Virus record (IMG/VR): IMGVR_UViG_3300033388_005916 | Location: 1-39,342 of that record | Reading direction: 5' to 3' (one strand) | DNA length: 39,342 bases | DNA from: a virus | In this document: piece after piece, positions 5,248-32,340 of the stretch | How positions within the stretch are numbered: the first letter of the stretch is position 1 | How the letters are laid out: every line of letters starts with the position of its first letter | Position numbers and translations under genes: made by a program | The notes under the pieces: model-generated | Database searches by the model: none | What the model saw: only the letters and a program-made list of their open reading frames with translations | What the model was told of the DNA's origin: nothing

Positions 5248-5511
5248 ATGAAATTGATTAAAAAATTAGACACAAAGAGGGAAAGAAATGGGATAATGGT
5301 TAGGTGGGCATTATTTTTATGTGAATATTGCGATAATGAAATTAACATGCAAAATTCAAGAAATGCTAAATTAAATTTGAAACAAGTTCAACAGATACGT
5401 AGTATTTATAATAATATAAAAATAGAACAAAAATTACTTGGTAAAATTTTCAATATTTCAACTGGACAAATAAATAATATAGTTAATAATAGATCATGGA
5501 GGGAATTATGA
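5248..5511 (+). CDS. Mini HNH-family protein lacking the HNH core
   Basis: 87 residues. Residues 1-31 match the N-terminus of the intact HNH endonuclease at 26352 (MKLIKKLDTKRERNG, then LFLCEYC). From residue 32 the sequence jumps to that protein's C-terminus (INMQNSRNAKLNLKQVQQIR and the helix-turn-helix KLLGKIFNISTGQINNIVNNR). About 115 residues with the catalytic HNH are missing, and the frame is kept. The junction leaves a DNA-binding protein without nuclease. It is coupled by ATGA to the dCMP deaminase start. Either a decaying homing gene or a domesticated regulator. Confidence 0.7.
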   Translation: MKLIKKLDTKRERNGIMVRWALFLCEYCDNEINMQNSRNAKLNLKQVQQIRSIYNNIKIEQKLLGKIFNISTGQINNIVNNRSWREL

Positions 5512-6101
5512 GAATTACATTAGATGAATATTTTATGATATTAACTAAAATAGTATCGGTCAGATCGACTTGTAATAGTAGACATAATGGGTGTGTGATA
5601 ATAAAAGATAAACAAATATTATCAACCGGCTACAATGGTGCGATCCCCGGATGTAAACATTGTTCCGAATATTATATGCAACATTCACCTTCACTTTCTT
5701 CATATCCACCAATGATGAAAAGTATACCGTTTTGTGTAAGAAGAAATATGAATGTTCCAGATACGGATAAACAAAATTTTTGTGTTGCTTCTCATGCTGA
5801 AGCAAACGCTGTAGCTCAAGCCGCTAAAAAGGGAATATCGATAGATAACTCAATAGCATACTGTACCTTATCACCCTGCTATAATTGCTTAAAAATAATG
5901 GCAGTAGCCGGCGTTAAAAAAATAGTTTATGAATATGAATATGAATCAAACAATAATAAAAGAGATCAATACTGGAAAAATCAAATATTAAATTCCGGAA
6001 TAGAACTCGAAGTATTAAAAGTAGGCCCAGATGTTATTGCTACTGTTTTTAATTCGCTTCAATATCCGACTGCCAGGCGCCTTTTAATTGCCACGGAGTA
6101 A
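5508..6101 (+). CDS. dCMP deaminase (ComEB-like)
   Basis: 197 residues; deaminates dCMP to dUMP to feed dTTP synthesis. Zinc site: HAE at residues 96-98 and PCYNC at 123-127. The N-terminal RSTCNSRHNGCVIIKD, then TGYNGAIPGCKHC, matches phage deoxycytidylate deaminases, which carry a second metal-binding Cys cluster. ATG 5508 is chosen over 5496 because GGAGG sits just upstream of it and it overlaps the previous stop. The presence of a uracil-DNA glycosylase gene at 34999 fits a phage that manages uracil in its DNA pools. Confidence 0.9.
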   Translation: MRITLDEYFMILTKIVSVRSTCNSRHNGCVIIKDKQILSTGYNGAIPGCKHCSEYYMQHSPSLSSYPPMMKSIPFCVRRNMNVPDTDKQNFCVASHAEANAVAQAAKKGISIDNSIAYCTLSPCYNCLKIMAVAGVKKIVYEYEYESNNNKRDQYWKNQILNSGIELEVLKVGPDVIATVFNSLQYPTARRLLIATE

Positions 6102-6378: not shown

Positions 6379-6423
6379 TTCCGCTTTTTCGGTATATATG
6401 AGGATATACAGGAAAAAACGCGG
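6379..6423 (+). other. Imperfect hairpin ahead of the cassette array
   Basis: CCGC-TTTTTC-G-GTATAT pairs with ATATAC-AG-GAAAAAA-CGCGG across a short ATGAGG loop. It may be a terminator-like or attC-derived structure. No run of T follows, so termination is uncertain. Confidence 0.4.
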
Positions 6424-6440
6424 GATAACAAGTTGTTATC
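6424..6440 (+). repeat. Collapsed attC-like palindrome at array start
   Basis: Perfect palindrome GATAACAA-G-TTGTTATC. Its halves are the left-end box (ATAACAA) and right-end core (GTTATC) of the attC sites that follow, joined with the middle lost. It supplies the GTTATCT core at which the first cassette would begin. Could be a deletion scar or a primary recombination site; no attI or IntI gene is nearby. Confidence 0.45.
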
Positions 6441-6458
6441 TATCAAAAAAGGAACAAT

Positions 6459-6746
6459 ATGTTATTACTTACAATGAATAAATGGTTAGGGCCAGGAAGA
6501 CAAATGACGCGAGAGCAACGGCGTAGCACTGTTGCGAGTGAAAGACAGATGGCATTTGCGACTCGATTAACACTTCAAGAGGCTATTACAAAAATAGTCA
6601 AATATAAAATAGCGTATAACAAACACTATCTTTTAGCATTAGAATTTAGTTTACTCCAAGTATCTAAAATTGACGATCTTCCCAATAAACAACTTGATCT
6701 AATAAGAGTAGACTTAGTGGAGAATTTAACTGAGGATTTTGAATAG
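6459..6746 (+). CDS. Cassette 1 protein, unknown
   Basis: 95 residues, helical and basic in the N-terminal half (REQRRSTVASERQMAFATR), acidic at the end. SD AAAGGAAC before ATG 6459; ATG 6474 is a possible alternative. The TAG stop touches the left end of attC1. No family recognised. As a cassette gene its history is separate from the phage core. Confidence 0.7.
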   Translation: MLLLTMNKWLGPGRQMTREQRRSTVASERQMAFATRLTLQEAITKIVKYKIAYNKHYLLALEFSLLQVSKIDDLPNKQLDLIRVDLVENLTEDFE

Positions 6747-6811
6747 ATAACAAATCGCTTAACTCTGAATTCACTCGACAACGAGTGAATCAGGTTAGCT
6801 TAGTGTTATCC
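6747..6811 (+). repeat. attC site 1
   Basis: ATAACAA ... GTGTTATCC, 65 bp. Outer boxes ATAACAA and GTGTTAT pair; GCTTAAC pairs with GTTAGC leaving one extra T; inner TGAATTCACTCG pairs with CGAGTGAATCA leaving an extra A, around an ACAA loop. These unpaired bases on one strand are the hallmark that lets IntI recognise the folded bottom strand. 62 bp are identical to attC site 4. Confidence 0.85.
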
Positions 6812-6834
6812 ACCAAAAAAATTGAGGAGAACAG

Positions 6835-7038
6835 ATGCCTTATATATATACTTATTTAGACGGAGCAAGAAATGATGTAGAAATGGGGCCATATGAGACT
6901 GAAGAAGAGTGTGAAAAACACAGAAAAAAGCATTCTTCTTCCGGAGCGATGACGATGGCCACAAAGTGGGTAGAAAAAGAATATAAACCATATAAACCAA
7001 ATTATGACTTGGATAACAAAGCGCTCAACCTGACATGA
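6835..7038 (+). CDS. Cassette 2 protein, unknown
   Basis: 67 residues: MPYIYTYLDGARNDVEMGPY then an acidic helix EEECEKHRKKH and a tail rich in Lys/Tyr/Pro. SD GAGGAG. The last 8 codons and the TGA lie inside attC2, which is common for compact cassettes. Unknown function. Confidence 0.75.
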   Translation: MPYIYTYLDGARNDVEMGPYETEEECEKHRKKHSSSGAMTMATKWVEKEYKPYKPNYDLDNKALNLT

Positions 7039-7120
7039 ACCGTATGCTGCGATTACCATGCTTAATGTAAGTTATTAATCAAGGGCATGCGGTTCATGTC
7101 AGGTTAGCTTGGTGTTATAT
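7013..7120 (+). repeat. attC site 2 (long)
   Basis: About 108 bp. Left ATAACAA and right GTGTTATAT with core GTTATAT. CAACCTGACATGAACCG pairs with CGGTTCATGTCAGGTT and GTATGC pairs with GCATGC around a long apical region. L-prime/L-double-prime boxes are GCGCTCAAC and GGTTAGC. Longer than the 65-bp sites, as seen for VCR-sized attC. Confidence 0.85.
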
Positions 7121-7141
7121 GGGATTTTTAAAGGAGATGTG

Positions 7142-7384
7142 ATGATTTTAAAAGATAAAAATGGAATTATTTTAAAAGAAGGAGATTTTATTATGTGGAA
7201 TCCTGACGACGATGATTGGTTGGATATAATTATTTCGCATCACGGAGAACTTATGTCAGCGTACGAATTAGGAAGTACCAATCCTGACAAATTGCTGTTG
7301 AAAGATAGCTTATTCGGATCAGATAATCCTGTTTTAAAAGTTGGAAATATCCATGATAATTGTGTAGAAATTTCTGAATTTTAA
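7142..7384 (+). CDS. Cassette 3 protein, unknown
   Basis: 80 residues, acidic, rich in Asp (WNPDDDDWLDIIISHHGEL) with a beta-strand pattern. ATG 7142 is preferred because AAAGGAG is placed 6 bases upstream; the frame is open back to 7109 inside attC2. No family recognised. Confidence 0.75.
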   Translation: MILKDKNGIILKEGDFIMWNPDDDDWLDIIISHHGELMSAYELGSTNPDKLLLKDSLFGSDNPVLKVGNIHDNCVEISEF

Positions 7385-7403
7385 TTTTACTAACGAATAG
7401 CAT

Positions 7404-7468
7404 ATAACAAATCGCTGAACCTGACTCCGCCCGTGTAACGGGCGTAGTCGATTGGCTTGGTATTGTAC
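7404..7468 (+). repeat. attC site 3 (degenerate right end)
   Basis: Left box ATAACAAATCGC as in the other sites; inner arms GACTCCGCCCG and CGGGCGTAGTC pair around TGTAA; right side GGCTTGGTATTGTAC. The core that should read GTTRNNY is ATTGTAC here, so the recombination point is altered and the site may be inactive. Confidence 0.7.
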
Positions 7469-7475
7469 AGAATTT

Positions 7476-7691
7476 ATGAAAACAATAAAAATTCATTCTC
7501 AAAAAACTTGTCCTAAATGCGGCAGTGATAAATGGCATAGTTGTTGGGAGATGATTTTATTCGCTAAATGTAATAATTGTAACAATATTTGGCAATTGAT
7601 TAATGTTATACACACTGAAGAAATTCAGGGGATTGCCTTGCACCGAGAGAAGTTGACAGGTGAGAAATCGGTCCGGATAATTGGCAGTTGA
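7476..7691 (+). CDS. Cassette 4 zinc-ribbon protein
   Basis: 71 residues with CPKCGSDKWHSC and AKCNNCNN, a compact zinc ribbon, then an unrelated basic tail. ATG 7476 is chosen over an in-frame TTG at 7452 that falls in attC3. No SD is obvious; translation could depend on the upstream attC structure. Function unknown. Confidence 0.65.
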   Translation: MKTIKIHSQKTCPKCGSDKWHSCWEMILFAKCNNCNNIWQLINVIHTEEIQGIALHREKLTGEKSVRIIGS

Positions 7692-7737
7692 TAATCCGGT
7701 AGCCAAAACCGTAAAATAAATAAATGCTGCTCTGTGT

Positions 7738-7802
7738 ATAACAAATCGCTTAACTCTGAATTCACTCGACAACGAGTGAATCAGGTTAGCTTAGTGTTAG
7801 CC
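7738..7802 (+). repeat. attC site 4
   Basis: 65 bp, identical to attC1 over 62 bp, ending with core GTTAGCC, a perfect match to GTTRRRY-type sites. Same extrahelical T and A. The repeat of this site shows that cassettes 1 and 4 share a source or that one site was copied. Confidence 0.85.
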
Positions 7803-7821
7803 GCCATGTAAGGAGAAAAAT

Positions 7822-7995
7822 ATGCTCTATGATGTAAAATTTAATGACCTTTTTGATAACAAAAAACAGGCTGTAATTTGTTATCTTAGCTTAGAAAGAC
7901 GATATCAAGAATTATATAAACAATTAAGAGAACAAAAAAACGAAACAAATCAAATTATTTTGTTAGGTTATACAAATTATATAAAAGGCATATAA
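7822..7995 (+). CDS. Cassette 5 protein, unknown
   Basis: 57 residues, amphipathic helix-rich (CYLSLERRYQELYKQLREQK). SD AAGGAG seven bases ahead. The TAA stop overlaps the ATAACAA left box of the next attC. Coiled-coil-like; no family recognised. Confidence 0.7.
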   Translation: MLYDVKFNDLFDNKKQAVICYLSLERRYQELYKQLREQKNETNQIILLGYTNYIKGI

Positions 7996-8009
7996 CAAAA
8001 CGCTCAACC
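7992..8009 (+). repeat. Truncated attC site 5
   Basis: ATAACAAAACGCTCAACC matches the left quarter of attC2 (ATAACAAAGCGCTCAACC) but no inverted arm and no GTGTTA core follows. The array was therefore cut off here by a deletion or by joining to the phage gene at 8034. Confidence 0.7.
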
Positions 8010-8033
8010 ATCAAAAGACAGCAGGAAACTAAA

Positions 8034-8210
8034 ATGGAATATCAAAAATATGAATTTTGTAAAGCAATAAATTGTTGTAGTTTTAAAAATAAATGTTTTA
8101 ACATTAATTGTATTCGTACTGCAAAAGAATTTCATAAATGGCTAGTGGCTAATGGGTTTAAGATTGTTAAACAAACTTCTACTAAAAAAAATAGAAGAGA
8201 AAGATCATAA
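8034..8210 (+). CDS. Small cysteine-rich protein
   Basis: 58 residues with five Cys in residues 9-26 (FCKAINCCSFKNKCFNINC) then a basic tail ending NRRERS. Weak SD (CAGGAAA). Overlaps the next start as TAATG. Possible small metal-binding protein; unknown function. Confidence 0.6.
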   Translation: MEYQKYEFCKAINCCSFKNKCFNINCIRTAKEFHKWLVANGFKIVKQTSTKKNRRERS

Positions 8211-10778: not shown

Positions 10779-11008
10779 TGAGATTTATTATATTAAATAT
10801 TGTATTTTTTTTTATCGGGATATCAATTGGATATTTTATAACTAAATTTATAACCAAAAGATCATCATCAAATGATCCTTATGAAGAACCTAATACCCGG
10901 AAAGATTTAAATAAACATACTAATAAAATGTGTTCTCCTGATATTGAAGAAGAAAATGATTCTTTAAGAGATATTATGTTAAATCGGCTTTGGAAAAAAC
11001 CGGAATAA
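10778..11008 (+). CDS. Single-pass membrane protein
   Basis: 76 residues, N-terminal transmembrane helix (IILNIVFFFIGISIGYFI) followed by a basic stretch and an acidic C-terminal tail, predicting an N-out or anchor topology with a cytoplasmic tail. Coupled to 10521. Unknown. Confidence 0.7.
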   Translation: MRFIILNIVFFFIGISIGYFITKFITKRSSSNDPYEEPNTRKDLNKHTNKMCSPDIEEENDSLRDIMLNRLWKKPE

Positions 11009-11016
11009 AGTAAATT

Positions 11017-11163
11017 GTGAAACTAGATAAAAGTAATCCAGTAAAATATTTAATTATACCAAGGATATGTAAAGAATGTGGACATACTTATTATTCGATT
11101 TTATTAAAAGACGATACACCATTATGTTGTCCTATATGTAAAACCTGGATGACATTTAAATAA
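11017..11163 (+). CDS. Micro zinc-ribbon protein
   Basis: 48 residues from GTG 11017. CKECGHTYYS and LCCPICKTW give a four-Cys ribbon 20 residues apart. No clear SD. Fourth small zinc ribbon in the first 12 kb. Confidence 0.6.
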   Translation: MKLDKSNPVKYLIIPRICKECGHTYYSILLKDDTPLCCPICKTWMTFK

Positions 11164-11178
11164 AAAGGAGAATAATAA

Positions 11179-11250
11179 ATGTTTATGCTAGGATTTATGG
11201 TTGGATTTATAGTAGGAGTTATTGCCATTGTTTTAATGATTAATGAATAG
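11179..11250 (+). CDS. 23-residue membrane micro-protein
   Basis: MFMLGFMVGFIVGVIAIVLM plus INE: almost entirely one transmembrane helix with GxxxG-like Gly spacing. Strong SD AAAGGAGAATAATAA directly upstream supports translation despite its size. Unknown. Confidence 0.55.
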   Translation: MFMLGFMVGFIVGVIAIVLMINE

Positions 11251-11282
11251 ATTTTATGGAGAATAAAATAAGGAAAATAAAG

Positions 11283-18676: not shown

Positions 18677-19486
18677 ATGAATAAAATAATTATAACTAAC
18701 ATTTATTTTAAAGAAATTTTTTCACATAGACGATTTAATAATTCTATTAAAAAAACACTTGAAATATCTGTAAATAAAGGAGCTAATCTATGGAAAGCTG
18801 ATCTAAGGGGAGCTAATCTATGGGAAGCTGATCTAGGGGGAGCTAGTCTATGGGAAGCTGATCTAAAGGAAGCTAATCTAAGGGGAGCTAATCTAAGGGG
18901 AGCTAGTCTAAGGAGAGCTAATCTAAGTGGAACTAATCTAAAGGAAGCTAATCTAAGGGGAGCTAATCTAAAGGAAGCTAATCTAAGGGGAGCTAGTCTA
19001 TGGGAAGCTGATCTAAAGGAAGCTGATCTAAGGGGAGCTGATCTAAGTGGAACTAATCTAAGTGGAACTAATCTAAGGGGAACTAATCTAAGGGGAGCTA
19101 AAATTAATAATATATATAGAACTAATTTAAATATTTTAAAATCTCAAAAAAATAATCTAATTGTATATAAATATTTAAATAATAACTTAACATCACCTTA
19201 TCAAAATTTTAAATATAGAATAGGGAAAGAATATACATCTATAAATGCAAATGAAAATAATAAAATATTATGCGGCAAAGGAATAAATATAGCTACGCTT
19301 GAATGGTGCTTACAAAATACTAATAATAATATAAATGATTATATATATATTGAATGTGAAATTAATCCCCACGATTTAATTATACCTTTTAATTCAGATG
19401 GTAAATTTAGAATAAAATCAGGTGGCAAAATAAAATTAAATAAAATATTAACAAAAATAGAAATTGATGAAATAATAAATAACTAA
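18677..19486 (+). CDS. Pentapeptide-repeat protein with C-terminal globular domain
   Basis: 269 residues. Residues about 33-140 are over 20 pentapeptides of the A(N/D/S)LRG/KEA type, which fold as a right-handed square beta-helix; such proteins often mimic DNA or protect gyrase. The C-terminal 125 residues (LIVYKYLNNNLTSPYQNFKY, CGKGINIATLEWCL, GKFRIKSGGK) form a separate domain that I recognise from other phage pentapeptide proteins without a function. The DNA repeats are 15 bp and nearly identical, so copy number can change by slippage. Confidence 0.85.
   Translation: MNKIIITNIYFKEIFSHRRFNNSIKKTLEISVNKGANLWKADLRGANLWEADLGGASLWEADLKEANLRGANLRGASLRRANLSGTNLKEANLRGANLKEANLRGASLWEADLKEADLRGADLSGTNLSGTNLRGTNLRGAKINNIYRTNLNILKSQKNNLIVYKYLNNNLTSPYQNFKYRIGKEYTSINANENNKILCGKGINIATLEWCLQNTNNNINDYIYIECEINPHDLIIPFNSDGKFRIKSGGKIKLNKILTKIEIDEIINN
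18779..19103 (+). repeat. 15-bp DNA repeats coding pentapeptides
   Basis: Twenty-plus near-identical units such as GGAGCTAATCTAAGG, GAAGCTGATCTAAAG. Conserved at DNA level as well as protein level, as expected after recent slippage expansion. Confidence 0.85.
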
Positions 19487-22301: not shown

Positions 22302-22826
22302 TTGAAAAATAAAAAAGAAATTCTTGAAAAATTAAAAGAAAAAAATCAAATTCCTATTGGATTTTCAACACACGAAACAGCGAATATTCTTAGTGTTTCT
22401 TTTACAACTGTTATCCATTGGATAAAAAAGGGTAAAATTAAATGTTATAAGACATTGGGTGGTCATCGTAGAATTTTACCTAGTGAAATAGCAAGAATAA
22501 GCAAAATATTATCCAGCAACAATGAAATTACCCCTGTATCTAATACTACGCCTATCGCTAAACCTATTGCTAAACCTATTGCTAAACCTATTGTTAAGCC
22601 TATTGTTAAGCCTATTATTAAGCCTATTGTCAATAAAACTGTTGCTAAACCTATCGCTAAACCTATTGTTAAGCCTATCGCTAAACCTATCGCTAAACCT
22701 ATTGTTAAGCCTATTGTTAATAAAACTGTTGCTAAACCTAAAGCTCAAGCTAAAAAACCAATTTCTAGTCCAAGTAAGAAAGTAAGTGTTAGTAAAAAAC
22801 CAAGTAATCCTATAAACAAAATATAA
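22302..22826 (+). CDS. MerR/excisionase-type HTH protein with KPI(A/V) repeat tail
   Basis: 174 residues from TTG 22302, with AAAGGAGG ideally placed. Residues 18-67 (IGFSTHETANILSVSFTTV, HWIKKGKIKCYKTLGGHRR) are a winged-helix domain of the MerR/excisionase (HTH_17) type. Residues about 84-150 are 17 or so KPIA/KPIV/KPII tetrapeptides, broken twice by NKTV, then an SKK-rich end. The Lys-Pro tail resembles bacterial histone H1-like tails (KPAA) in plan, so it may coat or bridge DNA. The repetitive DNA (CCTATTGCTAAA) can slip. Flanked by inverted repeats. Confidence 0.75.
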   Translation: MKNKKEILEKLKEKNQIPIGFSTHETANILSVSFTTVIHWIKKGKIKCYKTLGGHRRILPSEIARISKILSSNNEITPVSNTTPIAKPIAKPIAKPIVKPIVKPIIKPIVNKTVAKPIAKPIVKPIAKPIAKPIVKPIVNKTVAKPKAQAKKPISSPSKKVSVSKKPSNPINKI

Positions 22827-25524: not shown

Positions 25525-25995
25525 ATGAAAATAGAAAGAAATTATGATGATATTCTTGAACAAGAAGATGTGGAATTAATGCCTAATGGTAACCACATGT
25601 TTGAAATTGCCGAAGTAGCTGATGGTTTTTCAGCCAATAAAGATCCAATGCCAAATATTTGTTTAAGATGTATTGAAGATGGAGAATCTGAGGGCAAGAA
25701 AGTTTGGGATAATATCCTTATCCCGGAGCCTGATTCAATGGCACATAAAATTATAGGTAGAACAAAGAGGTTCCTCCATGCGATAGGGGAACCGTACCAA
25801 GGTGATTTTGACGTAGATACTAGTGATTGGTTAAACAAAACTGTAGAAGTTAAAGTAGGTACCGAGGAATATAAAGGAAGAAAAAAGAATGTTGTTTCAA
25901 GATATCTTATATCAGAAAATCAACAAAATGAACATAGTAAAACGTCTTATTTACAGCCAAAGAAAACAGAAGAAGAAAACGATTTTCCATTTTAA
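25525..25995 (+). CDS. DUF669-type SSB-like protein
   Basis: 156 residues. Opens MKIERNYDDILEQEDVELMP, then a beta-rich OB-like body (GEPYQGDFDVDTSDWLNKTV, VEVKVGTEEYKGRKKNVVSR) and an acidic tail ending EEENDFPF, the type of C-terminus that single-strand binding proteins use to recruit partners. DUF669 genes sit beside Sak4 ATPases in many phages, as here. SD ATAGGAGC. Confidence 0.8.
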   Translation: MKIERNYDDILEQEDVELMPNGNHMFEIAEVADGFSANKDPMPNICLRCIEDGESEGKKVWDNILIPEPDSMAHKIIGRTKRFLHAIGEPYQGDFDVDTSDWLNKTVEVKVGTEEYKGRKKNVVSRYLISENQQNEHSKTSYLQPKKTEEENDFPF

Positions 25996-26351: not shown

Positions 26352-26957
26352 ATGAAATTGATTAAAAAATTAGAAACAAGAAGAAATAAGAACGGAAAAA
26401 TGTATAGATTGGCATTGTTTTATTGCGAGTATTGTAATAGAGGAGTCGAAAAACCTTACCTCGATGGCTTGAGATTTAAATCATGTGGATGTATGCAACA
26501 TAAATTATCCAATAAGGCCAGAACAAAACATGGTGATGCCCGTGTAGGTCATCATACTAACTTATACAATGTTTGGCGCAGCATGAAACAAAGATGTTGT
26601 GACAAAAATAATACCGCATACAAATGGTATGGAGGTAGAGGAGTAAAAGTTTGCGCTACGTGGAAAAAGCATTATATTATATTTAAAACATGGGCTGAAA
26701 ACAACGGATATAAGGCTAATCTGGCGATTGATAGAAAGGATAACAGCGGCAATTATAAGCCAAATAATTGTAGATTCGTAACACGTAAAATTAATATGCA
26801 GAATTCAAGAAATGCTAAATTAAATTTGAAACAAGTTCAACAAATCAGATCGTTGCATTTTAATGTAAAAATACCTCAAACATTGTTAGGAAAAATATTC
26901 TATATATCAAAGGGACAAATAAGCAGTATTGTAAATAATAAACAATGGATTGATTAG
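26352..26957 (+). CDS. HNH homing endonuclease, intact
   Basis: 201 residues, free-standing phage homing nuclease. Cys pairs CEYCNR and SCGCMQ at the N-terminus; core YGGRGVKVCATW, then NLAIDRKDNSGNYKPNNCRF, the DRxDNxGNYxxxNCR form of the HNH motif; C-terminal helix-turn-helix (TLLGKIFYISKGQISSIVNN) gives DNA specificity. A 25-bp repeat of its own start (AAAATTAGAAACAAGAAGAA) lies just upstream. Parent or sister of the degraded copies at 4774, 5248, 12768 and 38704. Confidence 0.85.
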   Translation: MKLIKKLETRRNKNGKMYRLALFYCEYCNRGVEKPYLDGLRFKSCGCMQHKLSNKARTKHGDARVGHHTNLYNVWRSMKQRCCDKNNTAYKWYGGRGVKVCATWKKHYIIFKTWAENNGYKANLAIDRKDNSGNYKPNNCRFVTRKINMQNSRNAKLNLKQVQQIRSLHFNVKIPQTLLGKIFYISKGQISSIVNNKQWID

Positions 26958-30393: not shown

Positions 30394-30813
30394 ATGAAAG
30401 CGATAAATAAAGAAGCAAAAGAAATACTAGAAAGAATATTAGGTAATATAATCCCAATAAAGTCGTTAAATACCAGGGTAGTTAGAATTAAATATTCCGA
30501 TAAATATATAAGAATTAAAAAAAGATCTCTTAATAATCACGGTCATATTATAACAATATCAACAATAGTACAAAATAAAAAAGGTCGATATTTTGAGATC
30601 CCTAAAATTGATCTTTTGCGGCCCTTAAAGGACATGGAGTTTTATCCTATAGAATGTATCAATACAAAGACTAAGTGGAGCGTAATAGTCGCTGAAACAT
30701 CAAAAAATAGCCCTAATGAATATAGATGTACTGATTTATTACTTCAAGAGATTTTAACCGATTACGTTGATCTTTATTTAGAGATACTAGATAACGCAAA
30801 AATATTGGATTGA
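30394..30813 (+). CDS. Hypothetical protein, end of replication module
   Basis: 139 residues. Basic N-terminal half (VRIKYSDKYIRIKKRSLNNH) then beta-rich and acidic helix at the end. Starts 12 bases after the primase-helicase; its last base touches the terminator. No family recognised. Confidence 0.7.
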   Translation: MKAINKEAKEILERILGNIIPIKSLNTRVVRIKYSDKYIRIKKRSLNNHGHIITISTIVQNKKGRYFEIPKIDLLRPLKDMEFYPIECINTKTKWSVIVAETSKNSPNEYRCTDLLLQEILTDYVDLYLEILDNAKILD

Positions 30814-30853
30814 AAATGTCATAAAATATGATACTTAAATTTTATGACATTTT
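30813..30853. terminator. Bidirectional terminator, 15-bp perfect stem
   Basis: AAAATGTCATAAAAT (30813-30827) and ATTTTATGACATTTT (30839-30853), loop 11 bases. A-rich left and T-rich right arms suit termination on both strands. Closes the replication operon. Confidence 0.75.
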
Positions 30854-30907
30854 CATAAATATTAAGTATAAAAAACGATATTTACACTAGAATCGCTAGT
30901 TAAAAAG

Positions 30908-30923
30908 TGGAATAATTTTTGCA
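30908..30923 (+). promoter_or_regulatory. Sigma-54-like -24/-12 promoter
   Basis: TGGAATAATTTTTGCA: GG and GC in exact spacing, TTTGCA at -12; -24 has TGGAA for TGGYA. Directly after the terminator and 38 bases before the gene at 30961. Confidence 0.6.
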
Positions 30924-30960
30924 TTTAGATATAAGTAACAATTAATAAGGAGAATAAAAT

Positions 30961-31428: not shown

Positions 31429-32340
31429 ATGGGACAGACTGGCTTTATTTGCCCAGACGATAAAGAAATAACTTTTAAAGAATGTTTAAAGCAATGTCGG
31501 ATGAAGGAAATGTGCGTTTCGCGGCCCACGCTGCAAGCACTGTCTGTCCAAAGAAAATGGACAGGTTTGCCCTCCACGACTATGCTCTTGGGTGGGACTA
31601 GATATGCTTATTTAAAGATAGTAAAAGACTATTTCGAGGATTTGCAGAAGCTTAGTTTTATTTTGCTCGGCAACAAAGTGCATAAGGCTCTTGAAGATAA
31701 TGATATTTCTGGTAATTCTGAAATAGCTTTTAAAGATAAAACTATGTCAGGTATTTTAGATTATTACGATAAAGAAACTAAAACTTTATGGGATTATAAA
31801 GCATCTGGGTCATTCAAGGTAAAAAAAGCTCTTGGGCTAGTAAGCTATAAAGTCGATGATCCTACCGGGGCAACATATAAAAGAGGTGGTTCTGGGTTCA
31901 AAAAAGGCGATATAAAGCAAATCACAATGTGGAAACAAGATAAAAAAGCGGTTGATATGTGGGAGTGGGTTCTTCAAACCAACAGATATGCTATATGGCT
32001 ACAAGACGATAATATATTGGTTGAAAACATAAAAATAGAGGTTATAGTAAGAGATGGTGGTTTGAGAGCGGCTACATCCAGTGGTGTTGATAAAAATATA
32101 GTCGTCATAAACATTCCTATTATCTCTAAAGAATATGTATTAGATTATTTTAACAAAAAAGCAAATATGCTTAGAGCTAGTCTTGCGATTGGATGGAGTC
32201 CTCGTTGTAATGATAAAGAAACATGGAATGGCAGAAAATGTGACGGATATTGCCCAGTTTCTCATTTTTGCAACCAGATGCCGGACGATAATCCAATGGC
32301 TAAAAAGTTCGAAGATATGTGTCCCGAAATTTTATGCTGA
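31429..32340 (+). CDS. Cas4/RecB-like PD-(D/E)XK nuclease with Fe-S-type cysteines
   Basis: 303 residues. His85 in GNKVHKALED, then MSGILDYYD (Asp111) and KTLWDYKAS (Asp122, Lys124) follow the H...GxxD...(D/E)xK order of the Cas4/RecB nuclease motif. Cysteines near the N-terminus (CPDDKEITFKECLKQCRMKEMC) and the C-terminal CNDKETWNGRKCDGYC, CNQ may hold a 4Fe-4S cluster as in AddB/Cas4. Phage relatives serve as recombination exonucleases. SD CAAGGAGGATTAAAT. Confidence 0.75.
   Translation: MGQTGFICPDDKEITFKECLKQCRMKEMCVSRPTLQALSVQRKWTGLPSTTMLLGGTRYAYLKIVKDYFEDLQKLSFILLGNKVHKALEDNDISGNSEIAFKDKTMSGILDYYDKETKTLWDYKASGSFKVKKALGLVSYKVDDPTGATYKRGGSGFKKGDIKQITMWKQDKKAVDMWEWVLQTNRYAIWLQDDNILVENIKIEVIVRDGGLRAATSSGVDKNIVVINIPIISKEYVLDYFNKKANMLRASLAIGWSPRCNDKETWNGRKCDGYCPVSHFCNQMPDDNPMAKKFEDMCPEILC

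Follow-up and report, generated by a model that had tools for sequence, protein, structure and literature searches.

How does a run of small genes, each followed by what looks like an integron recombination site, come to lie in a phage genome without an integron integrase? The window analyzed here is the whole of IMG/VR virus record IMGVR_UViG_3300033388_005916 (39,342 nt), a contig with genes for a terminase large subunit, a primase-helicase, a dCMP deaminase, an RNA ligase, and a sigma factor. An earlier note, made from the letters of this DNA, had read part of it as an integrase-less integron cassette array inside a phage. This is borne out by a repeated attC arm, by predicted folds, by the cassette boundaries, by two related phages, and by the missing recombinase: the window has, at 6436–8012, an array of five cassettes with four attC sites and one half site (Table 1). 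With four and a half sites in 1.6 kb, it falls within the definition of a CALIN, a cluster of at least two attC sites within a few kb with no intI nearby. The explanation that we favor, and consider very likely as a whole, is that the array is a CALIN within the early region of a tailed-phage genome, and that host integron integrases insert cassettes repeatedly into these phages, with integrase-less CALINs as the result.

Table 1. Positions in the window of the cassette array, of the gene in its left neighbor region, and of the empty site discussed in the text.
Feature	Positions	Strand	ORF	attC site or other detail
dCMP deaminase, left neighbor region of array	5496–6101	+		G1 homologue 48894–49457, no array after it
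Left edge	6381–6441	+		stem-loop 6381–6424, then inverted core pair GGATAACAAGTTGTTATCT 6423–6441
Cassette 1	6436–6805	+	6459–6746, 95 aa	attC1 6745–6811
Cassette 2	6806–7114	+	6835–7038, 67 aa	attC2 7011–7120 (110 nt)
Cassette 3	7115–7462	+	7142–7384, 80 aa	attC3 7402–7468, R′ core mutated (ATTGTAC)
Cassette 4	7463–7796	+	7476–7691, 71 aa, zinc-ribbon-like	attC4 7736–7802
Cassette 5	7797–8012	+	7822–7995, 57 aa	cut attC, left half, 7990 to ~8012
Empty site matching the filled site of G1	30821–30958	+		core GTTAAAAA at 30899 = insertion point

The five ORFs, all on the same strand, alternate with the attC sites, as had been claimed apart from small shifts in coordinates, and a purine-rich, ribosome-binding-like sequence lies upstream of four of them. 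The left arm of the sites, ATAACAAANCGCTNAAC, occurs exactly at 6747, 7013, 7404, 7738, and 7992, always on the + strand; in shuffled sequence, with up to one mismatch allowed, 0.01 matches would be expected by chance, against the five seen. Perfect copies of the right arm, GGTTAGCTTNGTGTTA, lie at 6793, 7102, and 7784 (about one chance match is expected if three mismatches are allowed; these three have none), while the right arm of attC3 has decayed to GATTGGCTTGGTATTGTAC. The complementary end cores, R″ (RYYYAAC) and R′ (GTTRRRY), are intact in attC1, attC2, and attC4, where R′ reads GTTATCC, GTTATAT, and GTTAGCC respectively; attC3 has ATT for GTT, and attC5, cut to its left half, has no R′. 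The attC1 and attC4 sites are 97% identical over 69 nt, though their cassette genes are unrelated.

Folding of the bottom strands, a check proposed along with the original reading, came out in its favor: attC1–4 fold far better than shuffled versions of themselves (z = −6.3, −7.9, −3.9, and −5.0 respectively). The folds of attC1 and attC4 contain an R stem, an unpaired spacer, an L stem, and extrahelical bases; attC2 forms a strong stem, and attC3 only an L stem and tip. An independent covariance model, trained on 18 attC sites from Vibrio, Shewanella, and TJE1 phages, scores attC1 and attC4 at 14.7 bits (E 0.19) and misses attC2 and attC3; attC2, at its length, may exceed what suits the model. 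Matches in the window span E 0.07–0.3, and the six best all lie within 6423–7886, two of them being palindromes matched on both strands. By the same model, held-out class 1 integron sites mostly score 18–32 bits, and the single attC of the related phage G2 (see below) scores 21.3 bits. Because the scores in the window are weak, the case for attC is built on repetition, folding, boundaries, and relatives instead of on this model. An Rfam search gave no match in the window. Genome-wide scans for arm complementarity and by log-odds could not tell the sites apart from shuffled sequence in AT-rich DNA, and were set aside as evidence; a full-site alignment with MAFFT misplaced the right arms, and comparisons made from it use left arms only.

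In the circular form of a cassette, its start (core GTTRRRY) and the R″ of its own attC site pair with each other. The starts of cassettes 1, 2, and 3 (GTTATCT, GTTATCC, and GTTATAT) are exact complements of their own R″ cores (AGATAAC, GGATAAC, and ATATAAC); the start of cassette 4 complements its own R″ at the three variable bases, and that of cassette 5 does not. Cassette 1 is opened by the second core of the inverted pair at the left edge (GTTATCT at 6435, giving a start at 6435/6436). Of the nine cassettes of the window and its relatives G1 and G2, six match perfectly at the three variable bases (permutation p = 0.0004): window cassettes 1–4, G1_a, and G2, but not window cassette 5, G1_b (two of three bases), or G1_c. 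The starts of G1_a, G2, and window cassette 1 were picked with the expected motif in mind, and the safer figure is a restricted one that leaves them out, with three perfect matches among six array-fixed starts (binomial p ~0.0004). Such complementarity is what would be expected had each cassette once been a circle.

Both relatives come from metagenome 3300022217 (IMG/VR). G1 (67.5 kb) and G2 (70.7 kb) encode helicase-primases with 81% and 66% identity to that of the window, and gene order is common to all three over most of the window's length. The window gene order runs across the G1 contig ends, making G1 probably near-complete and circularly permuted. A tblastn search of INPHARED with three window proteins found no phage above 60% identity. 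No tyrosine recombinase (PF00589, Phage_integrase) was matched in the window, G1, or G2, and a complete integron (intI plus attI) was not found, attI having been looked for in the left flank only. The missing tyrosine recombinase, together with the replication genes, suggests a phage of lytic type. Some further relatives were found through their capsid genes (L038–L041); the contigs compared span the structural half only, and are uninformative on cassettes.

The earlier note had looked to relatives for the same position with different cassettes. Different cassettes are indeed present, at different positions: the three phages have them at three loci. At the locus of the window array G1 has none, and homologues of the array-flanking genes lie close together (49672–50351). 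G1 instead has three cassettes, different from those of the window, at 6773–8125, flanked by genes whose window homologues (30394–30813 and 31429–32340) surround a short stretch without attC. G2 has a single cassette of ~319 bp at a third locus, with start GTTATCT and R″ AGATAAC. Neither G1 nor G2 has a homologue of any window cassette gene. Even so, attC2 and the G1 sites have in common, with small changes, the arms CCTGACATGAACCG and CGGTTCATG(T)CAGG, and this common attC subtype despite different cargo suggests one source pool. Separately, a different phage, IMGVR_UViG_3300033388_006958, has at 25688–25710 (− strand) a half attC, AGATAACAAATCGCTCAACCTGACA, made up of R″ and L″ alone and located upstream of a portal-like gene; the gene next to this half site has homologues in G1 (10888–11256) and G2 (39843–40259), neither with an adjoining attC.

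The site that is filled in G1 can be compared with its empty counterpart in the window (Table 1). When the G1 flanks are joined at their cores and aligned to this segment, 101 of 142 columns are identical. A scan of possible joins gave the best scores at window 30898–30907, between CTA and GTTAAAAAG, and the equal-best joins include G1 6772 (left) with 8125 (right); the exact insertion base is ambiguous within ~10 positions, because core-like sequence is present at both ends of the insert. The G1 insertion thus begins and ends on a GTT core, which is what an integron integrase acting at a secondary site should produce. Secondary-site insertion by IntI at GNT or GWT (reviewed in PMC4618277; off-target activity, PMC10127599) involves the same GTT triplet and core-like sequence at both ends; here the target is a phage and the IntI putative. 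Flanks of the window array do not align to G1, and the empty sites for the window and G2 insertions are not reconstructable by alignment. Repeats at unrelated places in related phages, with no cassette swaps, had been named beforehand as grounds against an integron, and cassettes at other loci come near this; but the insertion in G1, the only one that could be resolved, is a precise GTT-core event and supports integron recombination.

Directly observed, then, are the attC anatomy, the end complementarity, the absence of a recombinase, the differing cassettes and loci of the relatives, and one filled/empty pair. In the mechanism that we propose for them, a host with an active integron would be infected, and its IntI would act during infection, recombining excised cassettes (as folded attC bottom strands) with chance GTT cores in phage DNA. 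Later cassettes would be added at attC sites, or several might enter together as a short run. The cassettes would come from one host integron pool, be expressed, and be able to move again; renewed mobility could be expected of attC1, attC2, and attC4, and is probably beyond attC3 and attC5.

Other origins must be weighed against this. The phage might have taken a ready-made segment of a host's chromosomal integron as a block, by homologous or illegitimate recombination, with no integrase action on phage DNA; such routes have been proposed (Qi et al., 2023; PMC9892861). That the window array stops inside attC5, that its flanks are unalignable to relatives, and that attC1 and attC4 are near-identical, consistent with one chromosomal pool, would all fit; but the G1 insertion is clean, has a core at either end, and leaves the target sequence intact, and G2 has a single complete cassette, and we judge block capture unlikely. 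It is highly improbable that the repeats are phage hairpins, acting as intergenic terminators or promoters, that merely resemble attC. Such hairpins are common between small phage genes, and scores from the generic attC model are weak in this case, but neither the core boundaries, with their own-end complementarity, nor the precise core insertion in G1 would be expected of them, and no terminator-like site was found in the array region. All of the sequences come from metagenome assemblies, in which phage reads might have been joined to bacterial integron reads; since the cassettes of three separate contigs are all flanked on both sides by colinear phage genes, an assembly chimera is hardly credible.

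A further question, compatible with an origin by host integrase, is whether the array is by now a decaying relic, immobile and retained as ordinary phage genes. At the crossover, A replaces G in three of eight R′ boxes (attC3, G1_a, and G1_b, the last two out of three boxes in G1), which is consistent with decay after capture, and attC5 is cut; yet in attC1, attC2, and attC4 both cores, R″ and R′, are intact and the folds are strong, and we lean somewhat against the array being a relic. Returning to repeated insertion by host integrases, a broader proposal is that recurrent, perhaps ongoing, cassette capture is a gene-gain route of this lytic-type lineage, by secondary-site insertion, at new loci, of genes such as methyltransferases; on this the balance seems to us about even.

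The suggestion in the earlier note that the cassettes may be defense or anti-defense cargo found no footing among the window genes: their proteins have no weighty PADLOC, Pfam, or PHROG match, the zinc-ribbon similarity of gene 4 excepted. G1 does hold a DNA methyltransferase cassette (193 aa; phrog_757, E 2e-66), alongside genes for proteins of 50 and 97 aa. By tblastn, gene 3 was unmatched in phages, and gene 1 and G1 gene c were unmatched in plasmids. Structure models, all of low confidence, gave no significant fold match; the cassette 1 protein is predicted to be mostly helical and the cassette 3 protein all-beta. The idea that gene 3 might be YopX-like lacked support.

As to a source, the exact attC1 sequence and looser attC patterns were searched against 85k genomes, and similar attC sites turned up only in one Nitrospiria and one Psychromonas contig; the arm pattern had no match in 296 Nitrospirota genomes. 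Neither set yielded a host, or an integron of this attC subtype in a bacterium. The Psychromonas contig (L005, from a metagenome-assembled genome) carries a chromosomal-type cassette array with attC resembling those of the window (ATATAACAAATCGCTGCACCTGAC ... CAGGTGAGCTTTGTGTTATGT). Sedentary chromosomal integrons, as in Vibrio and in this contig, have the same R″/L″/L′/R′ anatomy, and near-identical attC in unrelated cassettes; unlike them, the window array has no intI or attI, is limited to five cassettes, and lies in a phage.

Integrase-less arrays in lytic phages were already published in 2023: the main text of Qi et al. (2023; PMC9892861) describes 17 CALINs in phages, lytic ones included, and reports that IntI1 recombined five of six tested phage attC sites in E. 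coli. Among these, Tetrasphaera phage TJE1, Pseudoalteromonas phage PH101, and Polaribacter phage P12002L likewise are lytic and have attC-bounded small genes without intI; the edge of the TJE1 array has an inverted GTTRRRY pair, resembling the left edge in the window, and methyltransferase cassettes occur in CALINs of that study as they do in G1. The window belongs to another phage lineage, and its array had no match by blastn against INPHARED. What is added here, beyond that main text, is the filled/empty pair and the three loci within one lineage. No later report of phage cassette arrays of this sort was found in the part of the literature covered. Earlier lytic-phage cassette arrays are single cases, whereas here one lineage has three loci in three phages, a common attC subtype with different cargo, and a filled/empty pair joined on a GTT core. 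These findings open the route of entry to testing, and point to phages as takers as well as carriers of integron genes.

Some other features of the window lie outside the array. The terminase large subunit gene (1–1467, − strand) contains an insertion that resembles an intein, beginning with CMTGDTKV and having an FGDG motif; its homologue in G1 (489 aa) seemingly lacks one, and that in G2 has 826 aa. Both the N-terminal and the C-terminal part of a 201-aa homing-endonuclease-like ORF (26352–26957) are matched by an 87-aa ORF (5248–5511) from which the middle is absent in frame. An HTH-like protein (22302–22826) contains long KPIxKPI repeats, and a pentapeptide-repeat-like protein (18677–19486) is present in G1 too.
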